64,000 bases of DNA from a virus: positions 62,001-126,000 of the IMG/VR virus record IMGVR_UViG_3300007513_000001; one strand, written 5' to 3'. The notes beneath the pieces were generated by a model. It was not told the origin of the DNA, ran no database searches, and saw only the letters and a program-made list of their open reading frames with translations. Of this stretch, positions 21,987-48,934 are shown piece by piece. The translations under genes were made by a program, and so were the position numbers. Position 1 is the first letter of the stretch; each line of letters begins with the position of its first letter.

Positions 21987-21987
21987 G

Positions 21988-23651: not shown

Positions 23652-23659
23652 ATTTTATA

Positions 23660-31572: not shown

Positions 31573-32602
31573 TGAAAATAAAATAACCGGGTCAAGGATT
31601 TTAATTTTCGGTGGAACTGGCTCACTCGGAAAAACTTTGATTAAAAGGTTTTTAAAAGACAATAAAGTCTGCGCTTATTCTAGAGACGAATCTAAGCACT
31701 GGACACTCAAGAACGAGATAGATGATAGTAACCTAACGTTTTTTATTGGAGATATCAGAGATAAGCAGAGATGCTTAGAAGCCTTGCTTTCTTTTAGGCC
31801 AACGCATATTATAATAGCTTCAGCCCTTAAGCATGTAGATGTTTGTGAGAGATCTCCATATGAAAGTGTTTTAACCAACATAGAAGGAGTGGCAAACATA
31901 GTCAAGTGTGTAAATGAAAATATTCAGTCTCTTGACTATCTTGAAACAGTTCTTATGGTTAGTACAGACAAAGCGTGTTCGCCAATAAATGTTTATGGAA
32001 TGTGCAAAGCTATAGCAGAGCGAATGGTCACTTCTTGTGCAGCGCTAGAATCTAAAATTAAGTTTGTTGCAGTTAGATATGGAAATGTTTTAGAGTCTAG
32101 AGGAAGCATCATTCCGCTGTTCAAGTATCAAGCCGAAAATAAAGACAGCATAACAATAACTCATAATGAAATGACAAGATATGTTATGACTCTAGACGAA
32201 AGTGTTGATTTAATAGAGACAGCTATGCTGGAAGGCAACTCTGGAGAAACGTGGATACCAGCACTTCCAGCTATGAAAATATTAGATCTCGCAGAAATAT
32301 ATTCAGAGATGTATGGAAAACCAATTAAAGTGATTGGCATGCGACCAGGAGAAAAACTTCATGAGTCGTTAATAAACGATTCTGAGTCTTTAAGAACAAA
32401 TAAGGGTAAAAAATATTCTGTAGTGCTACCCTCATATACAAAACCATTTAACGGTAAAGAGTTCAGCATGAGAAGTGATGATTCTTTAATGACAAAAGAA
32501 GAACTTAGAAATCACTTAGAAGACTTAGATATATTACAAAAACCGCTTTCACAATTTATCGGAAAAAATATAGAAGACATAAATGTAGGGAAAAAGACAT
32601 GA
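31565..32602 (+). CDS. UDP-sugar 4,6-dehydratase, CapD/PseB-like
   Basis: 345 residues. FGGTGSLGKTLIKRFL gives the nucleotide site, ASALKHVDVCE the CapD/PseB-type active-site loop, VSTDKACSPINVYGMCKAIAE carries the STDK and YxxxK motifs of the family, and MRPGEKLHESLIN the tail seen in the UDP-GlcNAc dehydratases. Product would be a UDP-4-keto-6-deoxy sugar. PseB-type activity would feed into pseudaminic-type sugar synthesis with the aminotransferase that follows (4-nt overlap). Confidence 0.87.
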   Translation: MSDENKITGSRILIFGGTGSLGKTLIKRFLKDNKVCAYSRDESKHWTLKNEIDDSNLTFFIGDIRDKQRCLEALLSFRPTHIIIASALKHVDVCERSPYESVLTNIEGVANIVKCVNENIQSLDYLETVLMVSTDKACSPINVYGMCKAIAERMVTSCAALESKIKFVAVRYGNVLESRGSIIPLFKYQAENKDSITITHNEMTRYVMTLDESVDLIETAMLEGNSGETWIPALPAMKILDLAEIYSEMYGKPIKVIGMRPGEKLHESLINDSESLRTNKGKKYSVVLPSYTKPFNGKEFSMRSDDSLMTKEELRNHLEDLDILQKPLSQFIGKNIEDINVGKKT

Positions 32603-33726
32603 AGTATCCATTATTTAAAGTGCATATTGACATTGAAGATGCTTTAAGCAGAATTAGAGAAGTGTTTGAATCTGGTTTTTTAAACGAAGGAAGAGAAGTA
32701 CTTCAAATTAGGCAAATGCTACGAGAGATATGGGGCTTAGAAAATATAACAATGACTAGTTCTTGTACTGGTTCTTTGATAATGGCTCTTAAAATAGCTG
32801 GAGTTAAATCGGGAGACGAAGTAATAGCACCCTCCATGACTTGCGTAGCAACCAATGTTTCGACAGAATGGTTAGGTGCAAAAACTGTTTGGGCTGATAT
32901 AGATCCAAAAACTGGAAACGTAGACCCGAATGATGTAGCTAAAAAAATAACAGAAAAAACTAAAGCTATTATATGCGTCGACTGGGCTGGTATTCCTTGT
33001 AAGCTAGAAGAGCTTCAAAAAATATGTACAGAAAATGGAATAAAATTAATTCAAGATGCTGCGCATGGATTTGGAAGTGAGTACAAAGGAAAAGAAATCT
33101 GCCATTGGGCAGATATAACTTGCTATAGCTTCCAAGCGATCAAACATATAACAACTGGAGACGGCGGAGCCATTGTATGCTTAAGCGACGAAGATCATGA
33201 AAAAGCCGGTCGTTTAAAATGGTATGGATTTGATAGAGATCGGCTTAAGGACGAAGACGGAAACTGGAAAGGGAAAAGGTGGGATTCGAACATCGAAGAA
33301 GTTGGCTGGAAGCTTAATATGAACAATATGTCAGCTGTTTTGGGCATGTCTAATCTAGAAAGGCGAGAGAAGATTATAGGTTCCCACAAGAAAAATGCTT
33401 CAATATACAAAGAAATGTTTTTGCAAACTTCTAATATAACATCTTTAGAAGTTGAAGAATATATGGATCCATCTTACTGGATTTACACTGTTATTTTGGA
33501 TGAATCTATAGATAGAGATTCTATAATTGAGAAACTTTCTGAAAAGGAAATCCATTCAGGAATGGTTCATATACCTAACCACCCTTACGATTGCTTTGAA
33601 GAAAGCCCGAAATTAGAACATACTGAAAAATTTGCTATGCATCAAATTTGTATACCTTGCGGTTGGTGGCTTTCAGAAGAAGATGTTCGCTACATTGGAA
33701 ATAGCTTAATAGAACTTTGCGGGTAG
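32599..33726 (+). CDS. DegT/DnrJ/EryC1/StrS aminotransferase
   Basis: 375-residue PLP-dependent sugar aminotransferase. MTSSCTGSLIMALKIAGV is the family N-terminal pattern, IQDAAHGFGSEYKGK the PLP-phosphate region, and CYSFQAIKHITTGDGG contains the PLP-binding lysine. It aminates a nucleotide-linked keto sugar at C3 or C4. Next to two dehydratases and a formyltransferase, it probably makes an amino sugar for N-formylation. Exact regiochemistry cannot be assigned. Confidence 0.9.
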   Translation: MKYPLFKVHIDIEDALSRIREVFESGFLNEGREVLQIRQMLREIWGLENITMTSSCTGSLIMALKIAGVKSGDEVIAPSMTCVATNVSTEWLGAKTVWADIDPKTGNVDPNDVAKKITEKTKAIICVDWAGIPCKLEELQKICTENGIKLIQDAAHGFGSEYKGKEICHWADITCYSFQAIKHITTGDGGAIVCLSDEDHEKAGRLKWYGFDRDRLKDEDGNWKGKRWDSNIEEVGWKLNMNNMSAVLGMSNLERREKIIGSHKKNASIYKEMFLQTSNITSLEVEEYMDPSYWIYTVILDESIDRDSIIEKLSEKEIHSGMVHIPNHPYDCFEESPKLEHTEKFAMHQICIPCGWWLSEEDVRYIGNSLIELCG

Positions 33727-34484
33727 CTGTGGATCAATTAAAAAAAATTAATTGCGGAATTCTTTTTAACGCTAAAGAAAATAATTTTTCTGAATATTTG
33801 TCTTGGCTCAATGATTATGCTTTAGAAAATAAAGACGTAGACTTAAAAATATTCACCAACGATATTTCTTTTGTGGAGAAACATTTTCTGATAGAAAAAT
33901 CTCAAATATTAGATTCCTTTAATGAAATTTTAGATTTTTCTGATTTGCTAATTTCTTTGGGTTTTTGGAAGATAATAAAGAAAGAAAACATAGAAAAAGT
34001 TCCTTTGGGAATAGTAAATTTTCATCATTCTTATAGACTAAAATATAGGGGAAGGCATTGTTCTACTTGGGTTTTAAAAAATAATGAAACGCACCATGGA
34101 AGTACGATGCATTACTTAGATGAAAATTTAGATCAAGGCAAAATTATAGATTCAAAAAAATTTAAAATTAGTTGCGATGATGTAGCAGAAGATCTTTTTG
34201 AAAAAGCAAATGATGCTGGATTGCAAATCCTAAAAGAAAATTTTGGTTTATTAATACGGGGAAAAGTTGACAATAAAATAAACTTAAGTGAAAAACAACA
34301 TCTTTATAAGAAAAATGATTTAAGGCACGAAATATCTAATAGTTTCATAAATCATGAAAATGACCTTTTAAGAGAGATAAGGTCACTTACGTTTAGCAAT
34401 AAGCCCTCTCCATACATAATGCTTAACAACAAAAAAGTGTATCTAAAGTTAGAAGATTATGACTCAGGAATTTTAGGAAAATAA
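33717..34484 (+). CDS. Formyltransferase-like protein
   Basis: 255 residues of the methionyl-tRNA formyltransferase/sugar N-formyltransferase fold. SLGFWKIIKKENIEKVPLG, IVNFHHSYRLKYRGRHCSTW and THHGSTMHYLDENLDQGKII correspond to the core motifs including the HxSLLP-like and HxT segments (here FHHS and HHGST). Start is TTG 33717 (overlap 10 nt) or GTG 33729; neither has an obvious ribosome site. Family members N-formylate amino sugars using formyl-tetrahydrofolate. It is one of two such genes in the cluster. Confidence 0.75.
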   Translation: MRVAVDQLKKINCGILFNAKENNFSEYLSWLNDYALENKDVDLKIFTNDISFVEKHFLIEKSQILDSFNEILDFSDLLISLGFWKIIKKENIEKVPLGIVNFHHSYRLKYRGRHCSTWVLKNNETHHGSTMHYLDENLDQGKIIDSKKFKISCDDVAEDLFEKANDAGLQILKENFGLLIRGKVDNKINLSEKQHLYKKNDLRHEISNSFINHENDLLREIRSLTFSNKPSPYIMLNNKKVYLKLEDYDSGILGK

Positions 34485-34487
34485 ATA

Positions 34488-35177
34488 ATGAATTTTAAAA
34501 AGAGCAATCCATTTAGTCTAAAATACTATAAAGAGATTATTGGTGGAGCTAAAAAAGCCGGGTATGAGTTTTGCACAGTTTCTGAATTTTATCAAAAGGG
34601 GTGTCCTAGCAAAAAACATTTTATTCTTAGACATGATATAGACATTGTGCCAAACTCAGTTCAACAAATGATAGATATCGAGAATGATGAAAAAGTTAAG
34701 GCTACTTATTACGTAAGAGTTTTTGGTTCTCCGTATAACCCGTTTGATTACAATATATTCAACTGCTTAAAAGTTGCGGAATCTCAAGGCCATGAAATCG
34801 GTCTCCACACAAATCCAGTAGAGTTTGCCGAAATAAATGGAATAAATCCTATTGATGTAGTAATAACAGAGTACAACGTTTTAAAAAGCCAATTTAACGT
34901 AAAGAGCATATCAACACATAGAGATTTAAACTACATGTATAATTCTTTACCGTGGCTAGAAGAAAATTGGGAAAAAATTAAAACCGCAACAAAGCTAGAG
35001 TGCCAAGCTTACGACGCTGCAATTTTTGAGAATTCTGTGTACGTTAATGAAGGATTAAATCCTCATATTTGCTGGAGAAACCATCGGCCAGAAGATGTTA
35101 TAAAGACTGACGAATCAATTTATATGCTAACGCATAATCACTGGTGGTACAACAAGCATCCGTTTGAGATAAGGTAG
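34488..35177 (+). CDS. Polysaccharide deacetylase-like protein
   Basis: 229 residues. FILRHDIDIVPNSV has the deacetylase HDxD signature, EIGLHTNPVEF a second His motif, and ISTHRDLNYMYN a further metal-site-like segment. It resembles the carbohydrate-esterase-4/NodB fold. It may remove an N-acetyl group from a sugar, creating the amine that the formyltransferases could then modify. The gene has 3-nt gaps to both neighbours. Confidence 0.75.
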   Translation: MNFKKSNPFSLKYYKEIIGGAKKAGYEFCTVSEFYQKGCPSKKHFILRHDIDIVPNSVQQMIDIENDEKVKATYYVRVFGSPYNPFDYNIFNCLKVAESQGHEIGLHTNPVEFAEINGINPIDVVITEYNVLKSQFNVKSISTHRDLNYMYNSLPWLEENWEKIKTATKLECQAYDAAIFENSVYVNEGLNPHICWRNHRPEDVIKTDESIYMLTHNHWWYNKHPFEIR

Positions 35178-35179
35178 TT

Positions 35180-35860
35180 ATGGCATTAGAAAAAGAAAAA
35201 AAAGATGTGATCATATTTTGTGGATATCGCTCTTGGGCAGAAAGTATTTTCACAGAGCTAAAAGAAAAATACAGTAGCTTTAATTGGTATTCTGCAAATA
35301 AGCCAGATCAACTAGAAAATTTATTGCAAATAAAAGAAGTAAAGCTCGTAATACTTGCGGGGTGGAGTTGGATTATTTCAAAAGATGTGGTTGAAAAAAA
35401 CTTTATAGTAGGATTGCACCCTTCAGATTTGCCCAATTATGCGGGTGGATCTCCAATACAAAATCAAGTTTTAGATGGAATAGAAAATACCAAAATGTCT
35501 TTATTTAAAGTAAGCCCTAAAATAGATAAAGGAGAAATTTTATATAAGTCTAACCTTAGTTTGTCTGGCGGCATGGAAGACATTTTTAAAAATTTAGCTT
35601 CTTCTAGTTTGCAAGTCTTAGATCTCATGTTTGCAGATTACCCGAACATAAAGCTTCACTCGCAAGTTGGAGAGGGTAAAAGCTGCAGAAGACTTAAGCC
35701 AAAAGATAGTAAGATTGATTTTAAATTTAGCGAAATGACAGCAAAAGAAATGTATGACTTTATAAGATGTAGAGAAGATCCATACCCCAATGTTTATCTA
35801 GAAGATGAAACAGGAATATTATATTTTAAAAAAGTAGACTTTGTAGAAAAAAGGAATTAA
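35180..35860 (+). CDS. Sugar N-formyltransferase-like protein
   Basis: 226 residues. VILAGWSWIISKDVVEKN, then FIVGLHPSDLPNYAGGSPIQ is the catalytic segment of formyltransferases (HPxxLP), and KMSLFKVSPKIDKGEIL with GGMEDIFKNL follow. The C-terminal ~60 residues (GEGKSCRRLKPKDSKIDFKF) match the formyl-transferase C-terminal barrel. It resembles ArnA/VioF-type sugar formyltransferases. Tight spacing to the upstream deacetylase suggests the pair acts on one nucleotide sugar. Confidence 0.85.
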   Translation: MALEKEKKDVIIFCGYRSWAESIFTELKEKYSSFNWYSANKPDQLENLLQIKEVKLVILAGWSWIISKDVVEKNFIVGLHPSDLPNYAGGSPIQNQVLDGIENTKMSLFKVSPKIDKGEILYKSNLSLSGGMEDIFKNLASSSLQVLDLMFADYPNIKLHSQVGEGKSCRRLKPKDSKIDFKFSEMTAKEMYDFIRCREDPYPNVYLEDETGILYFKKVDFVEKRN

Positions 35861-35862
35861 AA

Positions 35863-36606
35863 ATGAAAACATGCTTAGTAGTTCCGTTTTATTTCGGCGC
35901 AAGAAGAATACGTTCTGGGCACCAAACATTTAAATGCGCTAAAGACGTAATTGATCTTGCTAGAGTGTGTTTTGAAAAATACACCGCTTGGGATTCTGGC
36001 TGCGATACAGATATAATCTTTGTTAATAATTCTCCGGAAGTAGAAGAATCTGCAGAATTTTTAAAAAAAATAAATGGTTCTAAAGTAAAAAACGGAAAAT
36101 TAATTGTAATAGAAGGCAATAATATTGGCATGGGCTTCGGCGCTCATAGTTTAGCTTATGACACTTTCAGAGATGATTACGATTATTGGATGTTTACAGA
36201 AGACGATACTATTATCACTAAGAAAAATTTAATGAAGATCGCGATAGACCAACTTAGGTCTAGTTCTAAAATAGGGTTTATCGCTTGTTATGGCTTAGCG
36301 GGAAATCATGCCCACGGAGGAATAGGTTGTACCTCTAGAGAAAACTTAGAAAAAGTATGGAAAGTTCACGGAAAGTTACCTCACCACGAATCTATACCAG
36401 ATCTTACTGATAATGTAAAATTTAAAAATACTCATATAATCCATGGAGAAATAGCTTTTACTAAATGTTATGTTGACTTGGGCATGAAGATAGAAAAAGT
36501 AGCTAGTGATGGTGTTCCCTTTTGCAGGTGGGATAAAGATGAGTCGCCTTATAACGATAAAAGAGACAAAAAAAATTGGGGAGAGATAGCGCAGTGTTTG
36601 AAGTAA
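35863..36606 (+). CDS. Probable GT2-type glycosyltransferase
   Basis: 247 residues. TCLVVPFYFGARRI begins the fold, DTDIIFVNNSPEVEE is a nucleotide-site-like motif, and YDYWMFTEDDTIITKKNLM contains an acidic EDD motif like the DxD of GT-A enzymes. The sequence is divergent, so the call rests on fold pattern and context. It is followed, with overlap, by a PhyH-like oxygenase. Confidence 0.7.
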   Translation: MKTCLVVPFYFGARRIRSGHQTFKCAKDVIDLARVCFEKYTAWDSGCDTDIIFVNNSPEVEESAEFLKKINGSKVKNGKLIVIEGNNIGMGFGAHSLAYDTFRDDYDYWMFTEDDTIITKKNLMKIAIDQLRSSSKIGFIACYGLAGNHAHGGIGCTSRENLEKVWKVHGKLPHHESIPDLTDNVKFKNTHIIHGEIAFTKCYVDLGMKIEKVASDGVPFCRWDKDESPYNDKRDKKNWGEIAQCLK

Positions 36607-37337
36607 ATAACAAAAAATTGCTAAGCGAGGGCTACATTGTTTTAGACAAATTTTTAACTGTAGAAGAATGTAGAAAGATTGAAGAAGAATTTTTAAATTT
36701 ATTAGAGACAATTGATATTTCTAAAACTGCTAATCATCCTAAGCTTAAAGTGGCTAACCATACAAAAACTAGAGAAGTTTCGGGAAATTTAGGAAATCTT
36801 TCTATGCCAGTCTTGCTCATTAGAGGCCATAACGGCTTTGATGATAATATGATAGAGCTTTTTAAAGCAGAAAAGTTGATTAATTTACCCGTAGAAAAAA
36901 TAAAGGCAGCAATTTCTTCTGCTGGCTTTTATGATTGCCGTTTAAGTTTTTCTTTATATTACAACGATAGTATTTCTAACACTCGAGGTTACCACCGCGA
37001 CGCCTCTCCATTGCCGCATCCCTTATATCCACGCGAAACTAAAAAGCTATATAAGTTTTTTATGTATGTAACCGACGTTTTTTCTATAGACCAGGGACCA
37101 TATTCTTATATTTCTAATACGCACTCGTGGGAAGGAAGTTTAAAAATTGCAGATCAGTTTAATGGGTCATATCTTAAACCTGGTGAAAAAGAAGAGCACG
37201 ATATAGATTTAGATCCTAAAATATTTTTAGGAAAAGCTGGCCTTGCTTTAATATCTGATCAAGCTGGATTCCATCGGGGGCTCCCACAAAGCAAGGGGTC
37301 TAAAAGAATTATGCTGGTATGTAAAATAAGGAGTTAA
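36594..37337 (+). CDS. Phytanoyl-CoA dioxygenase-like (Fe(II)/2OG) protein
   Basis: 247 residues. GYIVLDKFLTVEECRKIEEE is the typical PhyH N-terminus. GYHRDASPLPHP contains the HxD iron-binding pair, and GFHRGLPQ the distal histidine, followed by an Arg (KRIML) for 2-oxoglutarate. It would hydroxylate a small molecule or sugar. GTG 36594 with GGGGAG upstream is preferred over TTG 36576, which has no ribosome site; it lies 13 nt inside the preceding gene. Substrate unknown. Confidence 0.75.
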   Translation: MFEVNNKKLLSEGYIVLDKFLTVEECRKIEEEFLNLLETIDISKTANHPKLKVANHTKTREVSGNLGNLSMPVLLIRGHNGFDDNMIELFKAEKLINLPVEKIKAAISSAGFYDCRLSFSLYYNDSISNTRGYHRDASPLPHPLYPRETKKLYKFFMYVTDVFSIDQGPYSYISNTHSWEGSLKIADQFNGSYLKPGEKEEHDIDLDPKIFLGKAGLALISDQAGFHRGLPQSKGSKRIMLVCKIRS

Positions 37338-37346
37338 GGAAAGACA

Positions 37347-38330
37347 ATGGGCGAGAAAATAAAATTTGAGCAAGTTCCAATCGATAAAATAGCTCTCGAC
37401 ATAAGAGACGATATTAATTTAAGAACTTATGTATTGCTAAATCGCGCTGGACATATTTGGAAGCATTTTCTAAGGGGCGCTAATGAGTACAACATTCGTC
37501 CAAGGACTTACGAAAAGTTTCTAGAGCTTTATCAAGACATTAGAGTAAACGGAATAAAAGATCCAATAAAAGCTCAGAAGATTAATGGGAGATTTTATTT
37601 AGAAGACGGCGCTCATCGGCTTGCTGCCGCTCGAGCGCTGGGAATGAAATTTATTGATGTAGAAATAGTAACTAATTGCGGAATACCTTCTGTGTTTGTG
37701 GCAAAACCAAAAACTGTAGAAATACCATTTCCGATAGATCAAAATAATCCAAGAATCTTAAAAATATTCAAGTATATTGATAGCGATATTATAGAAAAAT
37801 TTGCTGACTTAGAGCTTTCTACTGATACTGAAAAAGAGCCAATGAAAGGAGCTTCAGTTTTTTGGCCCATGTGCTACGATCACTGGCCAGCCATGCTAGA
37901 AGAATTAAAAAAATTCCATAATGTAACTAAAAAAATAGAAATTACATGTGGCTCAAGAGATGTACTGCATGAGATGATAGTCGACTTTTACAAATCAGAC
38001 GATGTAGCTCCTTGGAAGGTGGAAGCTAAATTTCCATATTGTGATAATGCTCCTATGAAATTTTTAGTTTTAGAATTTGATATTGAAGATGCTAGGCACA
38101 GAATTAAAAGAAAAACTGGAAATGAAATTTCTATGGCAATAGAAGATTTAAAAAGTTATATAAGAAAAACTTTTCGTCCAATTGTTGCGAATTATCCTGC
38201 TAATGGTCAACCAGACCTTATCATTCACGCTGGAGACAACGAATATCAAACTTCAGAAATATTGAAAACTGTAATAAGGTTTAAAGATAATCAATCTGTA
38301 GAAATAAAAGATTTAACTGCGAGTGAATAA
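37347..38330 (+). CDS. ParB/sulfiredoxin-fold domain protein, unknown role
   Basis: 327 residues. The N-terminal ~130 residues hold a ParB-N/Srx-like domain: NGIKDPIKAQKINGRFYLED followed by GAHRLAAARALGMKF, matching the G-x-HR-xAA motif of that fold. The C-terminal ~190 residues are of no family I recognise. Proteins with such domains are known as nucleotide-dependent kinases or DNA-binding proteins. It lies amid sugar-modification genes, so it may modify a glycan or protein rather than bind DNA. AAGGA precedes the ATG. Confidence 0.65.
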   Translation: MGEKIKFEQVPIDKIALDIRDDINLRTYVLLNRAGHIWKHFLRGANEYNIRPRTYEKFLELYQDIRVNGIKDPIKAQKINGRFYLEDGAHRLAAARALGMKFIDVEIVTNCGIPSVFVAKPKTVEIPFPIDQNNPRILKIFKYIDSDIIEKFADLELSTDTEKEPMKGASVFWPMCYDHWPAMLEELKKFHNVTKKIEITCGSRDVLHEMIVDFYKSDDVAPWKVEAKFPYCDNAPMKFLVLEFDIEDARHRIKRKTGNEISMAIEDLKSYIRKTFRPIVANYPANGQPDLIIHAGDNEYQTSEILKTVIRFKDNQSVEIKDLTASE

Positions 38331-38955
38331 AACCATGTTTTTAGATTTAGTCGGCTTTTTTAATTCGATAAAAAACCTTAGATATTTTGCCACAAAAATT
38401 GAAACACCGTTTTTTAATGATCATTTTCCAGAAGATTATCCAGTTGGAAGAGATGTAGATCTTATTTGCCATCCCGAAGACTTTAGTCGTATATGTTGTT
38501 TATGTGAAGAGTTCATTCAACCAAAAGAGCCATTTTTACGAAGAATAGCCAAAGACACGCCAAAGCATTTTAGATATCGTATTGAATCTGCGAATTACTT
38601 TGTGAGACCAAACCCCAGCTCATACGACAAACTTATCCACGGTTTACCCATGACCAAACTACATTTTCAAGTTGATATATCGGCAATATCTGAAAAAGAA
38701 TACAGCTGTTTTTCAGATAATTTTATTAGTTCTATATTTGATGACTTGGATACTAAAAACGGAATCAATATTTTAGACAAAGATAGGGAGTCTACATTTC
38801 GGTTAATGTTTTGGAAAAAATCTCCAGCCGCAGTTCACCATTCAGATTATATTAGCAAAAATTTTGATAGAGAAATTTTGATGAATTTTAGAGATGGAGA
38901 AATAAAAGAATTTGCTAAAAACATTTTAGAGAGACTGGAAAAAGAAAGTGCGTAA
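38323..38955 (+). CDS. Nucleotidyltransferase-like hypothetical protein
   Basis: 210 residues. The segment YPVGRDVDLICHPEDFSRI near residues 42-60 resembles the GxDxD... metal-binding motif of the minimal nucleotidyltransferase fold (polymerase-beta type), as found in some LPS-cluster proteins of unknown role. The rest is not recognised. It is 8 nt overlapped with the GT29-like gene and with the upstream gene, so it belongs to the nonulosonate segment of the cluster. Function is inferred only weakly. Confidence 0.55.
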   Translation: MNKTMFLDLVGFFNSIKNLRYFATKIETPFFNDHFPEDYPVGRDVDLICHPEDFSRICCLCEEFIQPKEPFLRRIAKDTPKHFRYRIESANYFVRPNPSSYDKLIHGLPMTKLHFQVDISAISEKEYSCFSDNFISSIFDDLDTKNGINILDKDRESTFRLMFWKKSPAAVHHSDYISKNFDREILMNFRDGEIKEFAKNILERLEKESA

Positions 38956-39574
38956 AGTAGTTTTAGTTGGCAACTCTGGAGAAGCCCTTAATTCTAGGGC
39001 TGGAACTAGTATCGATTCGTCAGATGTAGTAATTAGAATGAACGATTTTGCAGTTTATGGATATGAAGCTTTTGTTGGTTCTAAGACTGATGTAGTTGTC
39101 TGCGCTTTTAGTGGAGATAATAAAATATGCGATATCAAAAACTACCCAAGCTACCCAACTAGAGACTTAGCTAAAAATAGTACAGTGTGGAGCGCTAGAT
39201 TTTTCGAACATCAGCATGATCCTCGAGGCCCGCAAAGAAGAAAGCTTTGCGAAGATCTTCTCGGTCATTCTAACGTAAGACAGCCAACTTTAGACCAGTG
39301 GAATAGAGCGCTAAATAATGCGTATTCTAATTTTTGGAGAAAGCAACCCTCTACTGGGTTAATGGCTATAGAAATGTCACTAGAAAAATATGAGGGTGAA
39401 GAGATATATCTTTATGGTTTTGATTTTAATGTTGAAAAAACTCATTATTTTGATAAAGATTATCTAGATAAAGATTATCCTGGCGATCGATGCGGTCATA
39501 ATTGGGAAGGAGAGTCGTTGTATATTCAACGTTTAATAAACCAAGGAAAAATAAAACTCCTAAAAGGTGTTTAA
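38948..39574 (+). CDS. GT29-type sialyltransferase-like protein
   Basis: 208-residue protein with the sialylmotifs of GT29. Motif L: VLVGNSGEALNS then IDSSDVVIRMNDF, and VGSKTDV. Motif S: PSTGLMAIEMSL, ending in IYLYGFDF. Motif VS: GHNWEGESLYIQ, including the catalytic-type His. GT29 enzymes transfer CMP-sialic acid (or related) to glycans and are best known in eukaryotes, with bacterial and viral members in marine settings. It sits directly upstream of CMP-nonulosonate and nonulosonate synthase genes that would make its donor. GTG start overlaps the previous gene by 8 nt. Confidence 0.88.
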   Translation: MRKVVLVGNSGEALNSRAGTSIDSSDVVIRMNDFAVYGYEAFVGSKTDVVVCAFSGDNKICDIKNYPSYPTRDLAKNSTVWSARFFEHQHDPRGPQRRKLCEDLLGHSNVRQPTLDQWNRALNNAYSNFWRKQPSTGLMAIEMSLEKYEGEEIYLYGFDFNVEKTHYFDKDYLDKDYPGDRCGHNWEGESLYIQRLINQGKIKLLKGV

Positions 39575-40222
39575 ATGTATTGGATAGTCATTCCTGCTCG
39601 CCGCGGATCTAAAGGTCTTCCCTTTAAAAATAGAAAATTATTCAGGTTCACATCAGGCATAGTACCTTCTGATCGTTTGTCAAACACTATAGTGACATCA
39701 GATGATGAAATAATTTTAGAAGGTGCTGTTAATGCAGGTTTCTTAAGCCACAAAAGAGACAAGTCGCTTGCAAAAGACGAGACTTCGGTTCGCGAAGTTT
39801 TAAAAGACGTCATATCTAAATTTAATATTCCAGCCAATGATACTATAATCATGCTGTATTTAACATACCCGCAGAGAACTTGGTTTGATGTTTCTAGAGC
39901 CATATCGTTTTATGAAATTTCTAATGGTAAATCCCTTCTTTGTCGAAAAGAATTAGAAAGTTCTCCATATCTTTGTTTTTATGAAGAACATGAATGGAAG
40001 GGGACGAAAATAATAGAACATGATTTCTGCCGTCGCCAAGATTATAGAGTTTGTTTTGAAGCATCTCATTTTATAGCGATGATGGAAGTCTCTAAAATTA
40101 ATGAACTAGATACAAATCTATATTGTAAAGATACAATATTCTTACCAATAGATTCTTGTATAGACGTTGACGAAGAAAAAGATTTAAGGAAATATTTTAA
40201 TGAAAACCAAGATAATAGCTGA
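39575..40222 (+). CDS. neuA: CMP-nonulosonate (CMP-sialic acid) synthetase-like
   Basis: 215 residues. WIVIPARRGSKGLPFKNRK is the NeuA/KdsB-type cytidylyltransferase signature, IVTSDDEIILEGA, then LTYPQRTWFDV, follow the family order, and IDSCIDVDEEKDL is the terminal substrate segment. It would activate a nonulosonic acid (sialic, pseudaminic or legionaminic) with CTP. Slightly short for NeuA (about 225). Overlaps the synthase gene by 23 nt. The sugar's identity cannot be read from sequence. Confidence 0.88.
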   Translation: MYWIVIPARRGSKGLPFKNRKLFRFTSGIVPSDRLSNTIVTSDDEIILEGAVNAGFLSHKRDKSLAKDETSVREVLKDVISKFNIPANDTIIMLYLTYPQRTWFDVSRAISFYEISNGKSLLCRKELESSPYLCFYEEHEWKGTKIIEHDFCRRQDYRVCFEASHFIAMMEVSKINELDTNLYCKDTIFLPIDSCIDVDEEKDLRKYFNENQDNS

Positions 40223-41021
40223 AATTGGGATTAATCATAATGGTGATATTGATATTGCAAAAAGGTTAATAGACATAGCGGTGGTAGCAGGGTGCGACTA
40301 TGCAAAGTTTCAAAAAAGAACTCCAGATATATGCGTACCAGAAGCTCAAAAAAATAAAATGAGAAACACCCCATGGGGTGAAATGAAATATATTGACTAT
40401 AAGAAGAAGATTGAATTTGAAAAAGAAGAATATGAAGAACTTTATGATTATGTTAAAGACAAGCCCATTGAGTTATTTTCTTCTGTTTGGGACAAGCCTT
40501 CTGTAGACTTTATGTCAAACTACACAAATGTTACAAAAATCGGATCAGCTCTAATTACCGACCTAGAATTATGCAGATATGCCAGAGATAATTCAAAGAC
40601 GCTTATTGTATCTACCGGGATGAGTACAGAAGAAGAAATTGATGCTTGCATTGCTGCATGCAGCCCCGATGTTATAATGCACACAAATTCGACTTATCCA
40701 TCTCCTGTTGACGAATTAAACTTAAATTATATCAATTGGCTATCTAATAAATGGCCTGGTGTAGATATCGGTTATAGCGGTCATGAATTTGGTTTGGTTA
40801 CCACCTTTGCCGCAGTCGCAATGGGAGCTACTTGGATAGAGCGCCACATAACACTCGACCGAGTTATGTGGGGAAGCGACCAACTTTCTTCTGTAGAACC
40901 AGGAGGATTAATTAAGCTTGTAAAAGGAATTAGAGATATTGAAAAATCTTTTGGCAAGAGTGGTCCAAGAAAACCTCTCGGTTCCGAGCTAGAAAAGAGA
41001 AAAAGCTTGAGGGGTATATAG
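40200..41021 (+). CDS. neuB: N-acetylneuraminate/nonulosonate synthase-like
   Basis: 273-residue TIM-barrel synthase. IIAEIGINHNGDIDIAKRLI is the NeuB N-terminus, AKFQKRTPD the substrate loop, FSSVWDKPSVDFM and GYSGHEFGLVTTFAAVAMGA the metal and PEP-binding segments, and ERHITLDRVMWGSDQLSS the catalytic end. It condenses a 6-carbon amino sugar with phosphoenolpyruvate. The C-terminal SAF (antifreeze-like) domain of NeuB/PseI, about 60 residues, is absent. Together with neuA and GT29 this makes a short nonulosonate pathway. Confidence 0.9.
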   Translation: MKTKIIAEIGINHNGDIDIAKRLIDIAVVAGCDYAKFQKRTPDICVPEAQKNKMRNTPWGEMKYIDYKKKIEFEKEEYEELYDYVKDKPIELFSSVWDKPSVDFMSNYTNVTKIGSALITDLELCRYARDNSKTLIVSTGMSTEEEIDACIAACSPDVIMHTNSTYPSPVDELNLNYINWLSNKWPGVDIGYSGHEFGLVTTFAAVAMGATWIERHITLDRVMWGSDQLSSVEPGGLIKLVKGIRDIEKSFGKSGPRKPLGSELEKRKSLRGI

Positions 41022-41735
41022 ATGAATTATGTTTTCGATATAGACGGCACTATATGCAGAGTCTCTGGAACCGATTATAGTACTGCTTCTCCTTTAGAAG
41101 AAAGAATAGAATACATAAATGATTTGTATGATTCTGGAAACAATATAACATATATGACCGCAAGAGGAATGGGTAGGCATAATGGAAATAGAGAAAAAGC
41201 ATGCAGTCAATTTTACGAATTTACTAAAAATCAATTAGCGTCTTGGGGAGCAAAACACCACCGACTTTTGTTGGGAAAACCAGCGGCCGATATTTACGTT
41301 GATGACAAAGGAATGTTAGATAAAGATTTTTTTAGCGGAATAAAGAAAAATAAAAATTCTGCTAGATTTTTGCCAAGAAAAACTAACTTAGAGATGAACC
41401 ATGTAGAAAAAGGATGGGGCTGGGAACGCTGGATATGTAATGGCCCAGAATATTGCGGCAAACTTCTTTTTTTTAATAAGGGAAAAATGTGTTCTTGGCA
41501 TCGTCATGCTCTCAAAGACGAAGTGTTTTATCTACAGTCTGGAAAGATGCTAGTAAAATATTCAGAGCAAGATGATATTTCTAAAGCCGAAGAGCTTATA
41601 CTAAACCCAGGTGACAATTTTCACGTTTATAGAGGTCTTCGGCATAGGATGATAGCCCTAGAAGATTCAGAGTTGTTCGAATTTTCAACTCAGCACTTTG
41701 ACACAGACAGCTATAGAATTATAAAGGGCGATTAA
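41022..41735 (+). CDS. HAD-like phosphatase domain fused to cupin
   Basis: 237 residues. NYVFDIDGTIC at 2-12 is the HAD nucleophile motif, ITYMTARGM contains the second HAD motif, and YVDDKGM a third. From about residue 125 a cupin follows: MCSWHRHALKDEVFYLQSGK, then NPGDNFHVYRGLRHRM. The HAD part may remove a phosphate from a sugar, as in nonulosonate synthesis, and the cupin may isomerise or bind it. The fusion is unusual. It begins 1 nt after the NeuB stop. Confidence 0.8.
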   Translation: MNYVFDIDGTICRVSGTDYSTASPLEERIEYINDLYDSGNNITYMTARGMGRHNGNREKACSQFYEFTKNQLASWGAKHHRLLLGKPAADIYVDDKGMLDKDFFSGIKKNKNSARFLPRKTNLEMNHVEKGWGWERWICNGPEYCGKLLFFNKGKMCSWHRHALKDEVFYLQSGKMLVKYSEQDDISKAEELILNPGDNFHVYRGLRHRMIALEDSELFEFSTQHFDTDSYRIIKGD

Positions 41736-42770
41736 ATGAGAGTACTAGTTACAGGTTCTGGGGGCTTAATAGGTAGCGAAGCTGCTGAATATTTTTTAAA
41801 AAAGCAGAATGTTACAGTGAAGGGCGTTGACAACAATATGCGGATGGTTTTCTTTGGTCCGGGCGGAGATGTAAGCTCTACAATTTTAAGACTTTCAGCT
41901 TATAAAAATTATAGCCACACAAATATTGACATAACAAATAAGCTGGCTGTCGATGAAGCTATTTCATCATTTCAGCCCGATCTTTTGATTCATTGTGCAG
42001 CACAACCCAGCCATGACAAGGCTGCAGATATTCCGCATTTAGATTTTGAAGTTAACGCAAATGGAACATTAAATCTTTTAGAATCTTTTCGAAACCACTG
42101 TAGCGAATCTTCAGTTTTTATACACGTGAGCACTAATAAAGTGTATGGAGACGGGCCTAACTATCTTGATTTAACAGAGGGGCAAACTCGATATGATTTT
42201 GCTGATGAAAAATATAAAAACGGCATCGCTGAAGATTTTTCTATAGATAGTTGTCTGCATTCTCTTTTCGGGGCCTCTAAGGTCGCTGGAGATATCTTGG
42301 CGCAAGAGTATGGTAGATACTTTGGCTTGAACGTTGGAGTCTTCAGAGGCGGCTGTCTAACCGGACCGCAACATGCTGGGGTAGAGCTGCATGGTTTTCT
42401 TTCTTACATCATAAAGTGCGCAAAATCTGGTAATCCATATACTATTTTTGGCTATAAAGGAAAACAGGTTAGAGACCAAATTCACTGTTACGATGTGGTA
42501 AGAGTTTTTGAAGAGTTTGCCGCAGATCCTAAAAAGGGAGAAGTATACAATCTCGGTGGAGGCGTGCACAATAGCGCGTCTGTATTAGAAGTGATAAGTT
42601 TAATACAAGAAATTTCTGGATACGAATTGAATTATTCGCACTCTAGTGAAGCAAGAATTGGTGATCACATATGTTACTACACCGATATGTCTAAATTTAA
42701 ATCTCACTATCCTTCTTGGAGCATGAAATATAGCTTGAATGCGATAATAGAGGAAATGATAAATGGATAA
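41736..42770 (+). CDS. CDP-paratose 2-epimerase-like SDR
   Basis: 344-residue extended short-chain dehydrogenase. MRVLVTGSGGLIGSEAAEYF is the Rossmann motif; VDNNMRMVFFGPGGDV strongly recalls the CDP-paratose/tyvelose epimerase family; HCAAQPSHDKA, VSTNKVYGD and FGASKVAGD (a YxxxK variant with F in place of Y at the catalytic position) follow. The replacement of the usual Tyr in YxxxK should be checked. It would interconvert CDP-linked sugars. TAAATG junction with the upstream gene. Confidence 0.82.
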   Translation: MRVLVTGSGGLIGSEAAEYFLKKQNVTVKGVDNNMRMVFFGPGGDVSSTILRLSAYKNYSHTNIDITNKLAVDEAISSFQPDLLIHCAAQPSHDKAADIPHLDFEVNANGTLNLLESFRNHCSESSVFIHVSTNKVYGDGPNYLDLTEGQTRYDFADEKYKNGIAEDFSIDSCLHSLFGASKVAGDILAQEYGRYFGLNVGVFRGGCLTGPQHAGVELHGFLSYIIKCAKSGNPYTIFGYKGKQVRDQIHCYDVVRVFEEFAADPKKGEVYNLGGGVHNSASVLEVISLIQEISGYELNYSHSSEARIGDHICYYTDMSKFKSHYPSWSMKYSLNAIIEEMING

Positions 42771-43521
42771 AAACGTTCTATCTCCTGCGCATATTTCTTC
42801 TATCAAGAGAATGTTAGGTGTGGATGAATCTTTTCGAGACCACGATAAGAAGAAAAAGCCGATTAAAAGAAAAACTACCAAGCCATTAGTATGCGGTCCA
42901 GACTATCTAGAGTATCTTACAAAAAATCTAGTGTCTCCAGCAGGGGTTCGCTCTCCATATGAAGTTCCACATGTGGTAAAAAATTTAATCAAAGATAAAG
43001 TGGTGGTAGATCTCGGATGCGGATCAGGAGATCTATCTTTTGGATTTTCGAAATATGCAAAAATGGTGTATGGTATTGAAATATCGTCGAAAGTCAGGAG
43101 TAATCCAAGATGCGATAAAATAAAAAACATAAAATTGTATAAAAAACAAAATTTTTGGGAAGCGATAGAAGAAAAGGAGCTTTATGCAGACGGCGACGTA
43201 TATTATGTTTGGGGTTTCGCGCACTGTCCTCTTGGGGGCCGTAAAATAAACTTTCAAGAAAAAAAATTCCTGACAGCTAAGCATATTAAAGAAAATTTTC
43301 CCAAAGTTGTAGATAATGAAAATAGAATAATTTTAAGTTTTGCAAATATGTCAGATGTTTCTACCTGGCCATTCGATCAAATAATACCTTTTAAAACACG
43401 CGAACGTCCGATAAAGAAAATCAGACTGTTTGGAGAAGACTGGCAAAATCTATGCATAACAGTTTTAAGGTTTGATAATCCCGCAATAGAAAGTTTAGCC
43501 ACTCTTCGAACAAGAAGATAA
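42763..43521 (+). CDS. SAM-dependent methyltransferase
   Basis: 252 residues. A class I Rossmann methyltransferase with motif I VVDLGCGSGDLSFGFS near residues 82-97, then an acidic VYGIEISSKV motif II. The N-terminus is basic. It may O- or N-methylate a sugar or a phage component. Context suggests capping a glycan, as methylation often does. The stop is followed by a 64-nt gap with weak promoter-like sequence. Confidence 0.82.
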   Translation: MDKNVLSPAHISSIKRMLGVDESFRDHDKKKKPIKRKTTKPLVCGPDYLEYLTKNLVSPAGVRSPYEVPHVVKNLIKDKVVVDLGCGSGDLSFGFSKYAKMVYGIEISSKVRSNPRCDKIKNIKLYKKQNFWEAIEEKELYADGDVYYVWGFAHCPLGGRKINFQEKKFLTAKHIKENFPKVVDNENRIILSFANMSDVSTWPFDQIIPFKTRERPIKKIRLFGEDWQNLCITVLRFDNPAIESLATLRTRR

Positions 43522-43585
43522 AAAGTTTTAACTCGAGCTTGTTCATGAATATGTTTTTTAATAAAATTATACAACTGAGAGAAAC

Positions 43586-44608
43586 ATGACCGATTTACCG
43601 AAAGTGTCCGTTGGATTCGTTAATTGCAACAGGCTTCACTATCTTAAAAGCTGCGTAGAATCTTTTCTTTATTGTACTCAAGATTACCCAAATAAAGAAT
43701 TGATAATTGTAGATAATAATTCTGTTGAAGAAGGCACAGAAGAATATTTGAAAGAAAAAGAAGGCCAAGGGTTCATTGTTTTTAGGAGCGAACATAGAGA
43801 TCCTTCTAACGAGTTTGCTAGAGGTCTAAACAAGATAGTAGAAAACTCTACGGGAGATTACGTAATCTTACTCCAGGGCGATATGCAGTTTATATTAAAG
43901 GGCGGCTGGCTAAAAGATTACGTCGAGCTAGCTATTCAATACGGCCCGCAAGTTGGATGCATATCTCTTGACGCGCAAAGAAGAGTTACACACGATTCTC
44001 ATAAATTAACAGAACCAGTCTCTGTAAACGATTATTCTTTCGTTGCCGATTTAGATAGGCCTCCTGTCGCTGGCGCGGCAGATGCTTTCTTTTCTAGAGA
44101 AGTGTTAAGAGAAATGTATCCTTGGGAAATAAGAAATAGTAGTCACGAAGGTTCTGATGACTCTGAAACAAAAATGCTACAAAAAGCTGCCGCGCTAGTT
44201 TACCGCAGAAAGCTAAAGTGGAAAACTATTATGCCTATATTTCCGCCGGCTGCTGCCATATACACAGATTCTCGAGGAACCAACGCTAGAGTAAGGGGTA
44301 ATCGTAGATACGGCGATTATTGGCCGGCAAAATCAGATTTTAGATACTATGAAATATTAGATTATGAAAAATTGATTCAAGATAAAACCGCAACAGGAGG
44401 CCGCCCTTGGAGTATAGAAGAAGTAGTAAAAACTATAGGATTTAATGCGCCTATAGACGAACATGGTTCTTGGTTAAAAAATCCAATACGTCCTGACACA
44501 GCCTTGCCTGGAGAATGGGTAGAGCTAAATTATTTTGACTATTCAAACACAGAACCACTCACTACTAGTGAAGAAGATAAATTTTTAGAAGACTGGCTAA
44601 ACAGTTAA
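43586..44608 (+). CDS. GT2 family glycosyltransferase
   Basis: 340 residues. VSVGFVNCNRLHYLKSCVES, ELIIVDNNSVEEGTEEYL and DYVILLQGDMQFIL (acidic QGDM motif) outline a GT-A fold. SHEGSDDSETKM is a later acceptor/metal segment. It is preceded by AGAGA and follows the 64-nt gap, so it may start a separate transcript. Donor unknown. Confidence 0.82.
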   Translation: MTDLPKVSVGFVNCNRLHYLKSCVESFLYCTQDYPNKELIIVDNNSVEEGTEEYLKEKEGQGFIVFRSEHRDPSNEFARGLNKIVENSTGDYVILLQGDMQFILKGGWLKDYVELAIQYGPQVGCISLDAQRRVTHDSHKLTEPVSVNDYSFVADLDRPPVAGAADAFFSREVLREMYPWEIRNSSHEGSDDSETKMLQKAAALVYRRKLKWKTIMPIFPPAAAIYTDSRGTNARVRGNRRYGDYWPAKSDFRYYEILDYEKLIQDKTATGGRPWSIEEVVKTIGFNAPIDEHGSWLKNPIRPDTALPGEWVELNYFDYSNTEPLTTSEEDKFLEDWLNS

Positions 44609-44620
44609 ATTGGAGTTATA

Positions 44621-46258
44621 ATGAAAATAGCGGGACTTTGGTCGGGTCACGACTGTTCTTTTTGCGTTTTAGAAGATGGGAAACCTTTAATTCACGCTGA
44701 ATATGAACGCTACAATAGAGAAAAATCCCCGCCGGGAGATTCTTCTAACTTTATGTTTGACAGGTATCCAGAGTGGCCTGCTATAACTCATTTTGCTTCT
44801 GTATATCCAAAGAAAAAACTAACGGAAAGAGAAGAATCTTATAGTTTATTAAAAAACCACATAGACGCCAATGGTGGAAAGCTATATTTTTGCTCACATC
44901 ATAAAGCTCACGCAGCAAACGCTTTTTATTCTAGTAATTTTGAGAAATCTATAATCGTCACTTTAGATGGTGGTGGTGTAGAAGACGACCGCGGTGGAGA
45001 GTCTGCATGTACGATCTGGAGGGGTGATGGAACAGAATTGAAGCATCTAAAGACCTTTCGGCCTAACGAGATTAATATCGGAGGTGTGTGGACACGAGTA
45101 ACAAGGTATGTATTTAAGCTTCAGAACGGGTGGCCAAGAGGAGGCCAAGAGGGTTCTGTAATGGCCATGGCTGCTTTTGGTGATGCATCTATCTGGGCTC
45201 AAGACTGCTGGAATTGGTTAACCAAAGACAAGATGTCTGCTGGGTTTAAGCCTCCAAACCAACCAGTTGGAGCAACTTCAGACCGTGATCCACCCCACCC
45301 TTATTTAGAACCGTGGGCCGCTCATGCTAGAGAGTCAGAGCAAAATAGATTTGATATAGCTGCTGGTTTGCAAGAAGCGACCGAAGCTCTTATAAGACAA
45401 ATAATAGAATATGCGCTAAGCTTTGATAGCGATATAGATTCAATTTGTTTAGCTGGTGGTGTCACTTTAAATTCTGTTGCCATGGGAAAATTATTGAAGT
45501 GGTTCCCGCAATTAAAGAGAGTCTATATACCCCCTGTACCTTATGACGGTGGATTGTGTATAGGAGCGGCACAGGCTCTGTGGCACGAAGAGCTTGGAAA
45601 TCCGAGAATTAAATGGGAGCATAATTTTACTCCATATTTAGGAGAAACTTGGACTGAAGAACATTTTAATGAAGTTTTAGAAAATAGAAAAAATGACATA
45701 GAAGTTTTAGAATCAAGCGTAGAAGATATAGTTTCAAAGCTTCAAGAGGGAAATATAGTGTCGGTATTCAACGGCTCGTCTGAATCTGGCCGGCGAGCTC
45801 TTGGAAATAGAAGCATATTAGTAGATCCAAGATCAACGACAATGAAAGATACTATCAATGAAAAGGTCAAGCATCGGCAATGGTATCGCCCTTTTGCTCC
45901 CTCTATATTAGAGTCTGAAGCCTCAGATTGGTTCGAAGAATATCAAGAGAGTCCGTACATGCAGTTTGTTTTAAAATTTAAAAAAGAAAAAGTTGATTTA
46001 GTACCAGCTGTGGTTCATTTAGATGGAACAGCAAGACTACAAACGGTTAGAGAGACTGATAATAAGTGGTACTATGATTTTTTGCAAGCTTGGCATAAGG
46101 CATCTGGAGTACCAATCATACTTAACACAAGCTTCAATGATAGAGAGCCCATTTGCGAAAATGTTGAGCATGCTCTAAACTGCTTTTTAGGAACCAACAT
46201 TGACTATCTTTATTTTCCAGAATATAAGAAGCTCATAAAACGAAAAGGTGCAGAGTAA
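44621..46258 (+). CDS. Carbamoyltransferase (NodU/CmcH family)
   Basis: 545 residues, full length. SHHKAHAANAFYSSNFE and VTLDGGGVEDDRGGESACTI are the N-terminal ATP/adenylation motifs of the family (HxxxH), and SGRRALGNRSILVDPRS with YRPFAPSILES the C-terminal YrdC-like/Kae1-type region. It transfers a carbamoyl group from carbamoyl phosphate to a sugar hydroxyl or similar acceptor, with ATP. It would cap a glycan with carbamate. Shares an overlapping TAATG with the next gene. Confidence 0.92.
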   Translation: MKIAGLWSGHDCSFCVLEDGKPLIHAEYERYNREKSPPGDSSNFMFDRYPEWPAITHFASVYPKKKLTEREESYSLLKNHIDANGGKLYFCSHHKAHAANAFYSSNFEKSIIVTLDGGGVEDDRGGESACTIWRGDGTELKHLKTFRPNEINIGGVWTRVTRYVFKLQNGWPRGGQEGSVMAMAAFGDASIWAQDCWNWLTKDKMSAGFKPPNQPVGATSDRDPPHPYLEPWAAHARESEQNRFDIAAGLQEATEALIRQIIEYALSFDSDIDSICLAGGVTLNSVAMGKLLKWFPQLKRVYIPPVPYDGGLCIGAAQALWHEELGNPRIKWEHNFTPYLGETWTEEHFNEVLENRKNDIEVLESSVEDIVSKLQEGNIVSVFNGSSESGRRALGNRSILVDPRSTTMKDTINEKVKHRQWYRPFAPSILESEASDWFEEYQESPYMQFVLKFKKEKVDLVPAVVHLDGTARLQTVRETDNKWYYDFLQAWHKASGVPIILNTSFNDREPICENVEHALNCFLGTNIDYLYFPEYKKLIKRKGAE

Positions 46259-47109
46259 TGCAGACAACTATTGGAATTCTGGGCCAAGGGTTTGTCGGGT
46301 CTTCTGTGAAGCTAGGATTAGAAAAAGCTTATAAAATAGAAACTTACGATCTAATACCTGAAAAAGCCACGGTTGAATCTATCGGTGAGCTAGTTTGGAA
46401 ATCAGATGTTTTGTTTGTTTGTTTGCCTACCCCAATGAGAAAAGACGGAAGTTGCGACACTAGAATTATTGAATCCGCGCTGAAAGAAATAAACAATTGC
46501 TTATTAGAAATAAATAAAAGCAAGTTGGTAATCACGAAATCTACGGTCCCGCCTCAGACTCACTCAGGCTGGAGCAGCGAATATAGAAATTTAAACCTTG
46601 TTTTCAATCCAGAGTTTCTTACTGAAGCCAATGCCGCAGAAGATTTTAAGAATCAAAATAGAATAGTACTTGGTGGCCATCCATCCGATTGTGAAAAAGC
46701 TCAAAAAGTATTTCAAAAAGTATTTCCAAATATAAGTTATTTTACCACAACATACGTAACTGCAGAACTTGTGAAATATTTCATAAACTGCTTCTTAGCT
46801 GCAAAAGTCTCATTTGCTAATGAATTCTATCAACTATGTGAATCTTTAAATGCAGATTATTCTAGAGTGGTGTCTGGAGCTCTTTTGGATAAAAGAATAG
46901 GAACATCACATCTTCAGGTCCCTGGCCCAGATGGTGATTTTGGTTTCGGCGGCCACTGTTTTCCAAAAGACCTTAATGCTATGATTTATATGGCTAAAAA
47001 ACTAGACATTGATCCCAAAGTTCTTAAAGCGGCTAAACTAAAAAATTCAGAAGTTAGAAATAATAAAGACTGGGAATCTATGAAAGGGCGAGCCGTTAGT
47101 GAAGATTAA
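46258..47109 (+). CDS. UDP-sugar 6-dehydrogenase-like, truncated
   Basis: 283 residues. ILGQGFVGSSVKLGL (NAD loop), VCLPTPMR, TKSTVPPQ, FNPEFLTEANA and the active-site FGFGGHCFPKDLNAM with the catalytic Cys are all present and in order. It oxidises UDP-glucose-like or UDP-amino sugars to uronic acids. The usual C-terminal UDP-binding domain (about 120-150 residues) is missing and replaced by ~20 residues. The enzyme may be non-functional alone or use another partner. It overlaps the next gene by 11 nt. Confidence 0.85.
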   Translation: MQTTIGILGQGFVGSSVKLGLEKAYKIETYDLIPEKATVESIGELVWKSDVLFVCLPTPMRKDGSCDTRIIESALKEINNCLLEINKSKLVITKSTVPPQTHSGWSSEYRNLNLVFNPEFLTEANAAEDFKNQNRIVLGGHPSDCEKAQKVFQKVFPNISYFTTTYVTAELVKYFINCFLAAKVSFANEFYQLCESLNADYSRVVSGALLDKRIGTSHLQVPGPDGDFGFGGHCFPKDLNAMIYMAKKLDIDPKVLKAAKLKNSEVRNNKDWESMKGRAVSED

Positions 47110-47983: not shown

Positions 47984-48017
47984 ACAATTGCCATGTTTTT
48001 GTTTATGATTTTATATA

Positions 48018-48839: not shown

Positions 48840-48862
48840 CAGTTTAAAAAATTAAAGTTTCT

Positions 48863-48895
48863 AAGGGCCATTTTTTACCGTTTGGCCCTTTTTTA
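48863..48895 (+). terminator. Rho-independent terminator
   Basis: The arms AAGGGCCA (48863-48870) and TGGCCCTT (48883-48890) pair perfectly around a 12-nt loop, and a T-tract follows from 48889 (TTTTTT). It lies 24 nt after the nuclease stop and should end the long transcript covering the glycan cluster. Confidence 0.9.
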
Positions 48896-48934
48896 TTAAA
48901 ATGAATTAGTTCGAAGGGAGAGGTTAATTTCGAA

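Follow-up and report, generated by a model that had tools for sequence, protein, structure and literature searches.

Bacterial members of glycosyltransferase family GT29 that carry neither a transmembrane segment nor disulfide cysteines were reported in 2018 (PMC5811610), and neuB and neuA have already been listed among the metabolic genes of viromes (PMC3877843). On the supply side, a known logic is that of the ketodeoxynonulosonic acid (KDN) pathway, in which a KDN-9-P synthase is followed by a phosphatase and a CMP-KDN synthetase (PMC6200933; CMP, cytidine monophosphate). Two further points concern the synthase: NeuB of Neisseria meningitidis (NmNeuB) is inactive as the R314A mutant, Arg314 of its SAF (antifreeze) domain positioning and contacting the N-acetyl group of N-acetylmannosamine (ManNAc), and the domain is missing from 3-deoxy-D-manno-octulosonic acid (Kdo)-8-P synthase, an enzyme that acts on a sugar phosphate (PMC6795526). 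Here we analyse a stretch of 64,000 nucleotides (hereafter the window; bases 62001–126000 of the 293,409-bp viral contig IMGVR_UViG_3300007513_000001) from a giant uncultured bacteriophage, in which a GT29 gene, a NeuA-like gene, a NeuB-like gene and a gene for a HAD–cupin protein abut with zero gaps on the same strand (38948–41735). We read the first three genes together with the HAD gene as a phage pathway in which an ulosonic acid of the sialic-acid class is made, activated with CMP and transferred, and put the probability of this at about 0.6. Comparison of sequences or structures establishes the enzyme families, the intact active sites, the loss of the SAF domain, the linkage of the genes and their recurrence.

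The coordinates given in the first-pass annotation of this DNA are exact. The product of the first gene matches PF00777 (E = 1e-21, 78 bits, cut-off 23), and its best PDB match by sequence is porcine ST3Gal1 (E = 1.5e-8). All four sialylmotifs claimed at first pass are present with their catalytic residues (the Asn pair of motif L, motif S, the His of motif III and the His and Glu of motif VS): motif L reads VVLVGNSG...IDSSDVVIRMN...VGSKTD, motif S PSTGLMAIEMSLEKYEGEEIYLYGFDF, motif III HYFD and motif VS HNWEGE. Leaving aside the start Met, the columns that never vary among the 25 viral homologues of a strict alignment are I22, D23, R30, N32, G44, G137, G157, H166, H184 and E189, so that the motif and catalytic residues are what is conserved; a check for loss of the sialylmotif catalytic residues thus found them intact. 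PF00777 is matched by 25/25 members of the strict set, and the PDB matches of the profile built from it are all animal GT29 chains, with every animal subfamily of known structure among them (2e-33 to 8e-23). When an AlphaFold model of moderate confidence (pLDDT 73, pTM 0.77) was submitted to Foldseek the top PDB matches were all GT29 (ST8SiaIII at 1.3e-9, ST6GalNAc2, ST3Gal1 and ST6Gal1; TM about 0.65 by query), the next being the GT42 enzyme CstII. Hydropathy gives no transmembrane segment in the window GT29, and the cysteines that form the motif L/S disulfide in animal GT29 enzymes are absent from it; because bacterial GT29 proteins are also without them (PMC5811610), type II topology and this disulfide are not defining for the family. 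On sequence and model the product is a genuine GT29 family member, with a predicted sialyltransferase-class activity; this is the family whose enzymes attach sialic acids to the surfaces of animal cells.

The idea that GT29 is mostly a eukaryotic family was not supported, given the bacterial enzymes (PMC5811610) and the ~100 viral GT29-type open reading frames (ORFs) that we found. The viral and animal part of the phylogeny suggested at first pass was run, with 53 viral and 4 animal sequences. The four animal sequences group together with support 99/93, and outside this branch lies the window protein, which has a long branch of its own and whose precise position is unsure, so that it is not a recent capture from an animal. 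Used as a single-protein query the window GT29 matched nothing among the viral contigs, being too divergent. Searches for bacterial GT29 gave 0/297 genomes over the cut-off in the Bacteroidota set, two marginal partial matches in actinomycete genomes and no match in plasmids. The iterated HMM drifted, at weak E-values, to 600-aa proteins and a methyltransferase. A sequence bridge between GT29 and GT42 was also considered: a 33-member alignment matched GT42 structures at 3e-12 and the strict 25-member set did not, and because the signal stemmed from divergent 'KGPS' members no bridge is claimed.

The identification of the next two genes as NeuA- and NeuB-like stands, and with both packed directly behind GT29 the phage does carry its own CMP-sugar supply genes. 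The NeuA-like protein, which as a single sequence is slightly under the Pfam cut-off (21.6 versus 22.6), carries the IPARxGSKGxPxKN loop in alignment; its family profile (A9) matches CMP-N-acetylneuraminic acid (CMP-Neu5Ac) synthetases in the PDB at 5e-24 and 2e-22 and KdsB only at 1e-4. The NeuB-like protein matches PF03102 (E = 7.6e-64) and keeps the equivalents of NmNeuB E25, K53, Q55, K129, S154, S213, H215, E234, H236 and D247, the phosphoenolpyruvate (PEP) and metal residues included, with Ser95, Trp97 and Ser164 in place of T110, F112 and N184. NeuB_NnaB (TIGR03569) is its best NCBIfam model and, as the score of 213 bits is under the equivalog cut-off (399.65), the protein is filed only as a ulosonate synthase of the NeuB superfamily. 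Its C-terminus falls before the SAF domain and hence there is no equivalent of Arg314. A SAF domain split off elsewhere was excluded, there being no PF08666 in the 293,409 bp of the contig, which may be incomplete; nor were Epimerase_2 (PF02350), PseG (TIGR03590) or a NeuC/WecB gene found in it, in keeping with the first-pass remarks that NeuB lacks SAF and that no NeuC-type supplier is seen. The Arg by which the ManNAc N-acetyl group is held comes from SAF, and the absence of this domain therefore argues for a different substrate. Where a 'reduced or different synthase' had been suggested, it is 'different' that stands and not 'reduced', as the SAF-less form is a large clade, a variant and not a remnant or a decayed enzyme, with members in phages and in Chlorobiota, Bacteroidota, Ignavibacteria and Actinomycetota (Hymenobacter and Streptomyces among them). 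We know of no product assigned to this clade, common as it is in bacteria. Decayed pseudogenes among the module genes are excluded by the open frames and intact active sites.

The fourth protein scores with TIGR01689 (2.6e-7), Cupin_2 (1.2e-7), phrog_7851 (2e-55) and phrog_1238 (2e-28), and the profile of its HAD part (A10) matches 9iqw in the PDB at 2.6e-21; with it the gene set of the KDN (Kdn-9-P) pathway, synthase, phosphatase and CMP-synthetase, is present at the locus. In most of the bacterial loci inspected a ~170-aa HAD-like ORF adjoins the SAF-less NeuB, and in many Chlorobiota and Bacteroidota-type loci such an ORF lies immediately upstream; both of those read (2/2) are HAD-like, one being Pfam-confirmed (L109), and by annotation there is also a HAD beside the SAF-less NeuB of Methylomagnum. 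Since two unrelated HAD types adjoin the same synthase, its product may be phosphorylated, as this arrangement suggests. As a separate observation, several bacterial loci (L109:4528-10834 among them) and a Methylomagnum plasmid (L238) hold an operon of NeuB, HAD, a split transketolase, a class-III aminotransferase and an SDR protein, to which L109 adds a cytidylyltransferase; judged by its genes this operon looks like a candidate ulosonate pathway.

We propose that the SAF-less NeuB would condense PEP with a hexose, most likely a host hexose 6-phosphate (Man-6-P or a relative), in which case NeuC would not be needed, that the phosphate would be removed by the HAD phosphatase, that NeuA would make the CMP-sugar and that the compact, soluble GT29 would transfer the sugar with inversion in the cytoplasm, with the His of motif VS as base, and with the His of motif III and the Asn of motif L serving CMP. 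The sugar would go to the terminus of a glycan that other enzymes of the surrounding cluster would assemble in the cytoplasm, probably on a virion protein. We regard a virion acceptor as an even proposition, a phosphorylated NeuB substrate as a little short of that, and a sugar that is KDN-like rather than Neu5Ac as somewhat more tentative still. Every protein of the glycan cluster looks soluble by hydropathy and no flippase or polymerase was recognised in it (20049–51345), which favours cytoplasmic glycosylation of virion proteins, a lipopolysaccharide core being compatible as well. It is thus probable that phages with the module attach an acidic nine-carbon sugar to some structure, of which their own particles are the likeliest.

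The module recurs in dozens of other aquatic phages. Scanning viral contigs with NeuB yielded 80 loci of 55–80% identity. Once these were reduced to 60 distinct ones (<95% identical, LR756508 and the window included), the number of viral NeuB loci with a given neighbour is 53 for NeuA, 52 for a small HAD, 25 for GT29 (counted at E<1e-28), 17 for a GT42-like protein and 11 for a WecB-type epimerase; as flanks reach at most 10 kb, these counts are lower bounds. The WecB model is over its cut-off in the single member scanned. Where GT29 is missing, the protein in its place (cluster 6) has a predicted fold like that of the GT42 sialyltransferase CstII (9e-5). Starting from GT29 instead, 68 viral loci were found on contigs partly shared with the NeuB scan; NeuA or NeuB accompanies GT29 in 29 of these, and HAD is present in 22 of the 29 against 0 of the 39 others (Fisher 4e-12; 1e-9 without duplicates). 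Chance juxtaposition of the module genes is excluded by the recurrence counts and this association test. Of 50,697 phage records, LR756508 alone matches each of the three window proteins (NeuA 45%, NeuB 51%). In the huge phage LR756500 (L003:14947-25385) GT29 is found with KdsA and KdsB (each over cut-off) and a KdsD-like isomerase, and because GT29 there adjoins a CMP-Kdo pathway, phage GT29 occurs alongside different kinds of CMP-ulosonate supply. Molecular mimicry with sialic acid, as first imagined for this locus, is not supported, nothing identifying Neu5Ac and this other GT29 phage carrying a CMP-Kdo pathway instead.

Three observations on these loci stand apart. Divergent GT29 paralogues, four by our count, surround one NeuB in LR756508 (L002:11519-16340). 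Near NeuA/NeuB in several viral loci lie DegT/PseC-type aminotransferase-like proteins of 214–227 aa with the mid-domain missing (L008:8680-9363, L055:6756-7400). A phage-like region with tail tape-measure and head-tail-like ORFs (L085:4172-15211) in the chromosome of a 'Thermoplasmatales' metagenome-assembled genome (CP070724) carries a NeuB 61% identical to that of the window, NeuA and GT29/GT42-like proteins.

The glycan-synthesis cluster around the module spans ~20.0–51.3 kb of the window on a single strand, with a 1463-aa repetitive (fibre-like) ORF on one side and baseplate genes on the other (Table 1). The nearest annotated relatives of the baseplate genes are those of Flavobacterium phages, and their closest matches are in Microcystis phage Mel-JY01 and LR756508, a 484-kb metagenomic phage. 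HldD scores over the cut-off of TIGR02197 (281 bits, cut-off 274.6), the HldE halves each under theirs (TIGR02199 160 bits, TIGR02198 126 bits), with a short kinase part. The first-pass annotation had missed the HAD–cupin gene, the PseB/PseC-like and formyltransferase genes, the ADP-heptose genes and the fact that the module recurs in many phages. Elsewhere in the window are a full-length tmRNA gene (10354–10761, +; Rfam RF00023, 107 bits; tag ANNNYHFEADRLAA), on the same contig as GroEL-, DnaK- and sigma-70-like ORFs, and a Tubulin/FtsZ-type GTPase (11834–13006, +) with a GGGGGTGS loop (PF00091 E = 3e-5, under cut-off).

Table 1. Genes of the putative ulosonate module and of the glycan cluster around it, in window positions.
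Feature	Position	Strand	Basis or remark
GT29-type CMP-ulosonate (sialyl-)transferase (predicted)	38948..39574	+	GTG start, 208 aa; PF00777, alignment, fold
NeuA/PseF-type CMP-nonulosonate synthetase	39575..40222	+	IPARRGSKGLPFKN motif; family profile vs PDB
NeuB-type PEP-dependent ulosonate synthase, TIM-barrel domain only, SAF-less	40200..41021	+	PF03102
HAD phosphatase (N-terminal ~107 aa, DxDGT motif, EcbF/BcbF type) fused to cupin	41022..41735	+	TIGR01689, Cupin_2
PseB/CapD-like UDP-GlcNAc 4,6-dehydratase; possible feeder or separate sugar	31565..32602	+	PF02719 4.7e-78
PseC/LegC-like DegT aminotransferase	32599..33726	+	PF01041 1.9e-85
Sugar N-formyltransferase-like	33717..34484	+	PF00551 5e-18
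Second sugar N-formyltransferase-like	35180..35860	+	PF00551 3e-12
ADP-heptose genes: HldD 27250–28209; HldE halves 28190–28582, 28536–29321	27250..29321	+	same glycan cluster
Glycan cluster: GT2, GT4, GT9 transferases, epimerases, methyltransferase, carbamoyltransferase	20049..51345	+	

Several findings weigh against the pathway as we read it. The HAD is of the EcbF/BcbF type and not of the KdsC or KDN-9-P phosphatase type, and HAD directly adjoins NeuB in only 19/60 viral loci; PseB/PseC-like genes lie 5–7 kb upstream of the module in the window; some relatives bear WecB- or NeuD-type genes, which would fit an N-acetylated sugar; and GT29 is within the flank in only ~40% of NeuB loci, 39/68 GT29 loci having no NeuA/NeuB in the flank, so that the pairing of GT29 with NeuA/NeuB is frequent and not obligatory. 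The upstream genes bring in a pseudaminic-type route, in which the PseB/PseC-like proteins and an N-formyltransferase would make a 4-formamido-6-deoxy hexosamine that NeuB converts to a formylated di-amino nonulosonate (like Pse5Ac7Fm), followed by NeuA and GT29. The ORFs at 31565 (PF02719, TIGR03589 best), 32599 (TIGR03588 best) and 33717 (formyltransferase) do follow one another and PseF is the best NCBIfam model for NeuA. PseG, however, was not found in the contig and PseB, PseC and PseI are all below equivalog level (TIGR03589 263.9 bits, cut-off 407.75; TIGR03588 229.9 bits, cut-off 423.5; the NeuB prefers the NeuB model, 213, over PseI, 163); moreover, pseudaminic (Pse) and legionaminic (Leg) acids are 9-deoxy sugars, for which a phosphatase would be useless, and the PseB/PseC/formyltransferase set is missing from most relatives of the module, all of which makes this route unlikely. 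A classical Neu5Ac pathway, with NeuB taking host ManNAc or ManNAc-6-P and GT29 performing true sialylation, would agree with NeuB_NnaB as the best NCBIfam model and with the WecB-type UDP-GlcNAc 2-epimerase in 11/60 related loci and NeuD in a few, but the score far under the NnaB cut-off (213 versus 399.65), the missing SAF Arg that binds the N-acetyl group and the lack of an epimerase (Epimerase_2) in the contig leave it with still poorer odds.

It might also be that GT29 is a general CMP-ulosonate transferase using host CMP-Kdo while NeuA and NeuB serve another transferase, as LR756500 pairs GT29 with Kds proteins, in plants GT29 includes putative rhamnogalacturonan II Kdo transferases (PMC11288761) and many viral GT29 loci are without NeuA/NeuB in the flank; in the window, however, GT29 abuts NeuA with zero gap and the contig yielded no second gene of GT29 or GT42-like type, and we consider this improbable. 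A different question is that of the acceptor, which could be host lipopolysaccharide instead of the virion, the host surface being remodelled to block superinfection. ADP-heptose genes and GT9 (heptosyltransferase-family) in the same cluster would fit this, and lipopolysaccharide-core transferases are likewise soluble and cytoplasmic, but the cluster sits between the fibre-like ORF and the baseplate genes, no membrane step is encoded in it and there is no hint of lysogeny in the contig; we count this as a minority possibility, though a real one.

If the proposed phage pathway for a CMP-activated ulosonic acid is correct, many uncultured phages make and attach sugars of the sialic-acid class using their own enzymes, the module offers a direct test of phage particle glycosylation and small soluble GT29 enzymes for study, and the SAF-less NeuB clade gains a testable function. 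The viral GT29 proteins are also a broad prokaryotic/viral sample for the question of the origin of animal sialyltransferases. A much wider proposition, which we hold to be rather unlikely at present, is that aquatic phages are a large undescribed reservoir of GT29 (and GT42-like) enzymes, that a distinct ulosonate pathway (SAF-less sugar-phosphate synthase, mini-HAD phosphatase and CMP-synthetase) is coupled to these enzymes and makes a new CMP-sugar for virion glycosylation, and that the diversity of GT29 in this reservoir exceeds that of animals in age and breadth, the animal sialyltransferases being one supported branch within it. No published description of a linked GT29/NeuA/NeuB/HAD module was found, most subscription journals being outside the search, and in BFVD the name 'Glycosyl transferase family 29' is given to one uncultured Caudovirales protein.

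With the animal (ST3Gal, ST6Gal, ST6GalNAc and ST8Sia) and bacterial GT29 enzymes the phage protein has in common the Pfam family, the four sialylmotifs, the fold and a predicted inverting chemistry (motif VS His); unlike them it has only 208 aa, starts at sialylmotif L and is ~25% identical, and in contrast to the animal enzymes it has neither transmembrane anchor nor motif L/S cysteines. The sialyltransferases of ChHV5 herpesvirus, squirrelpox virus and mimivirus ChoanoV1 are virus-encoded GT29 of matching fold, but the GT29 of animal viruses are host-type enzymes whereas that of the phage sits beside its own CMP-sugar genes. GT42 (CstI, CstII) has a related fold and a GT42-like protein takes the position of GT29 in 17 related phage loci, although only the wider, mixed set and not the strict viral GT29 profile matches GT42 in sequence. 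The phage NeuB shares the catalytic TIM-barrel and the PEP/metal residues with NeuB (SiaC) of N. meningitidis and differs from it in having no SAF/Arg314 and in the replacement of T110, F112 and N184 by Ser, Trp and Ser. With the KDN pathway of Bacteroides thetaiotaomicron and Prymnesium parvum the phage set shares the epimerase-free logic of synthase, HAD phosphatase and CMP-synthetase; its HAD comes from another subfamily, its product would be KDN-like by inference, and it includes a transferase.

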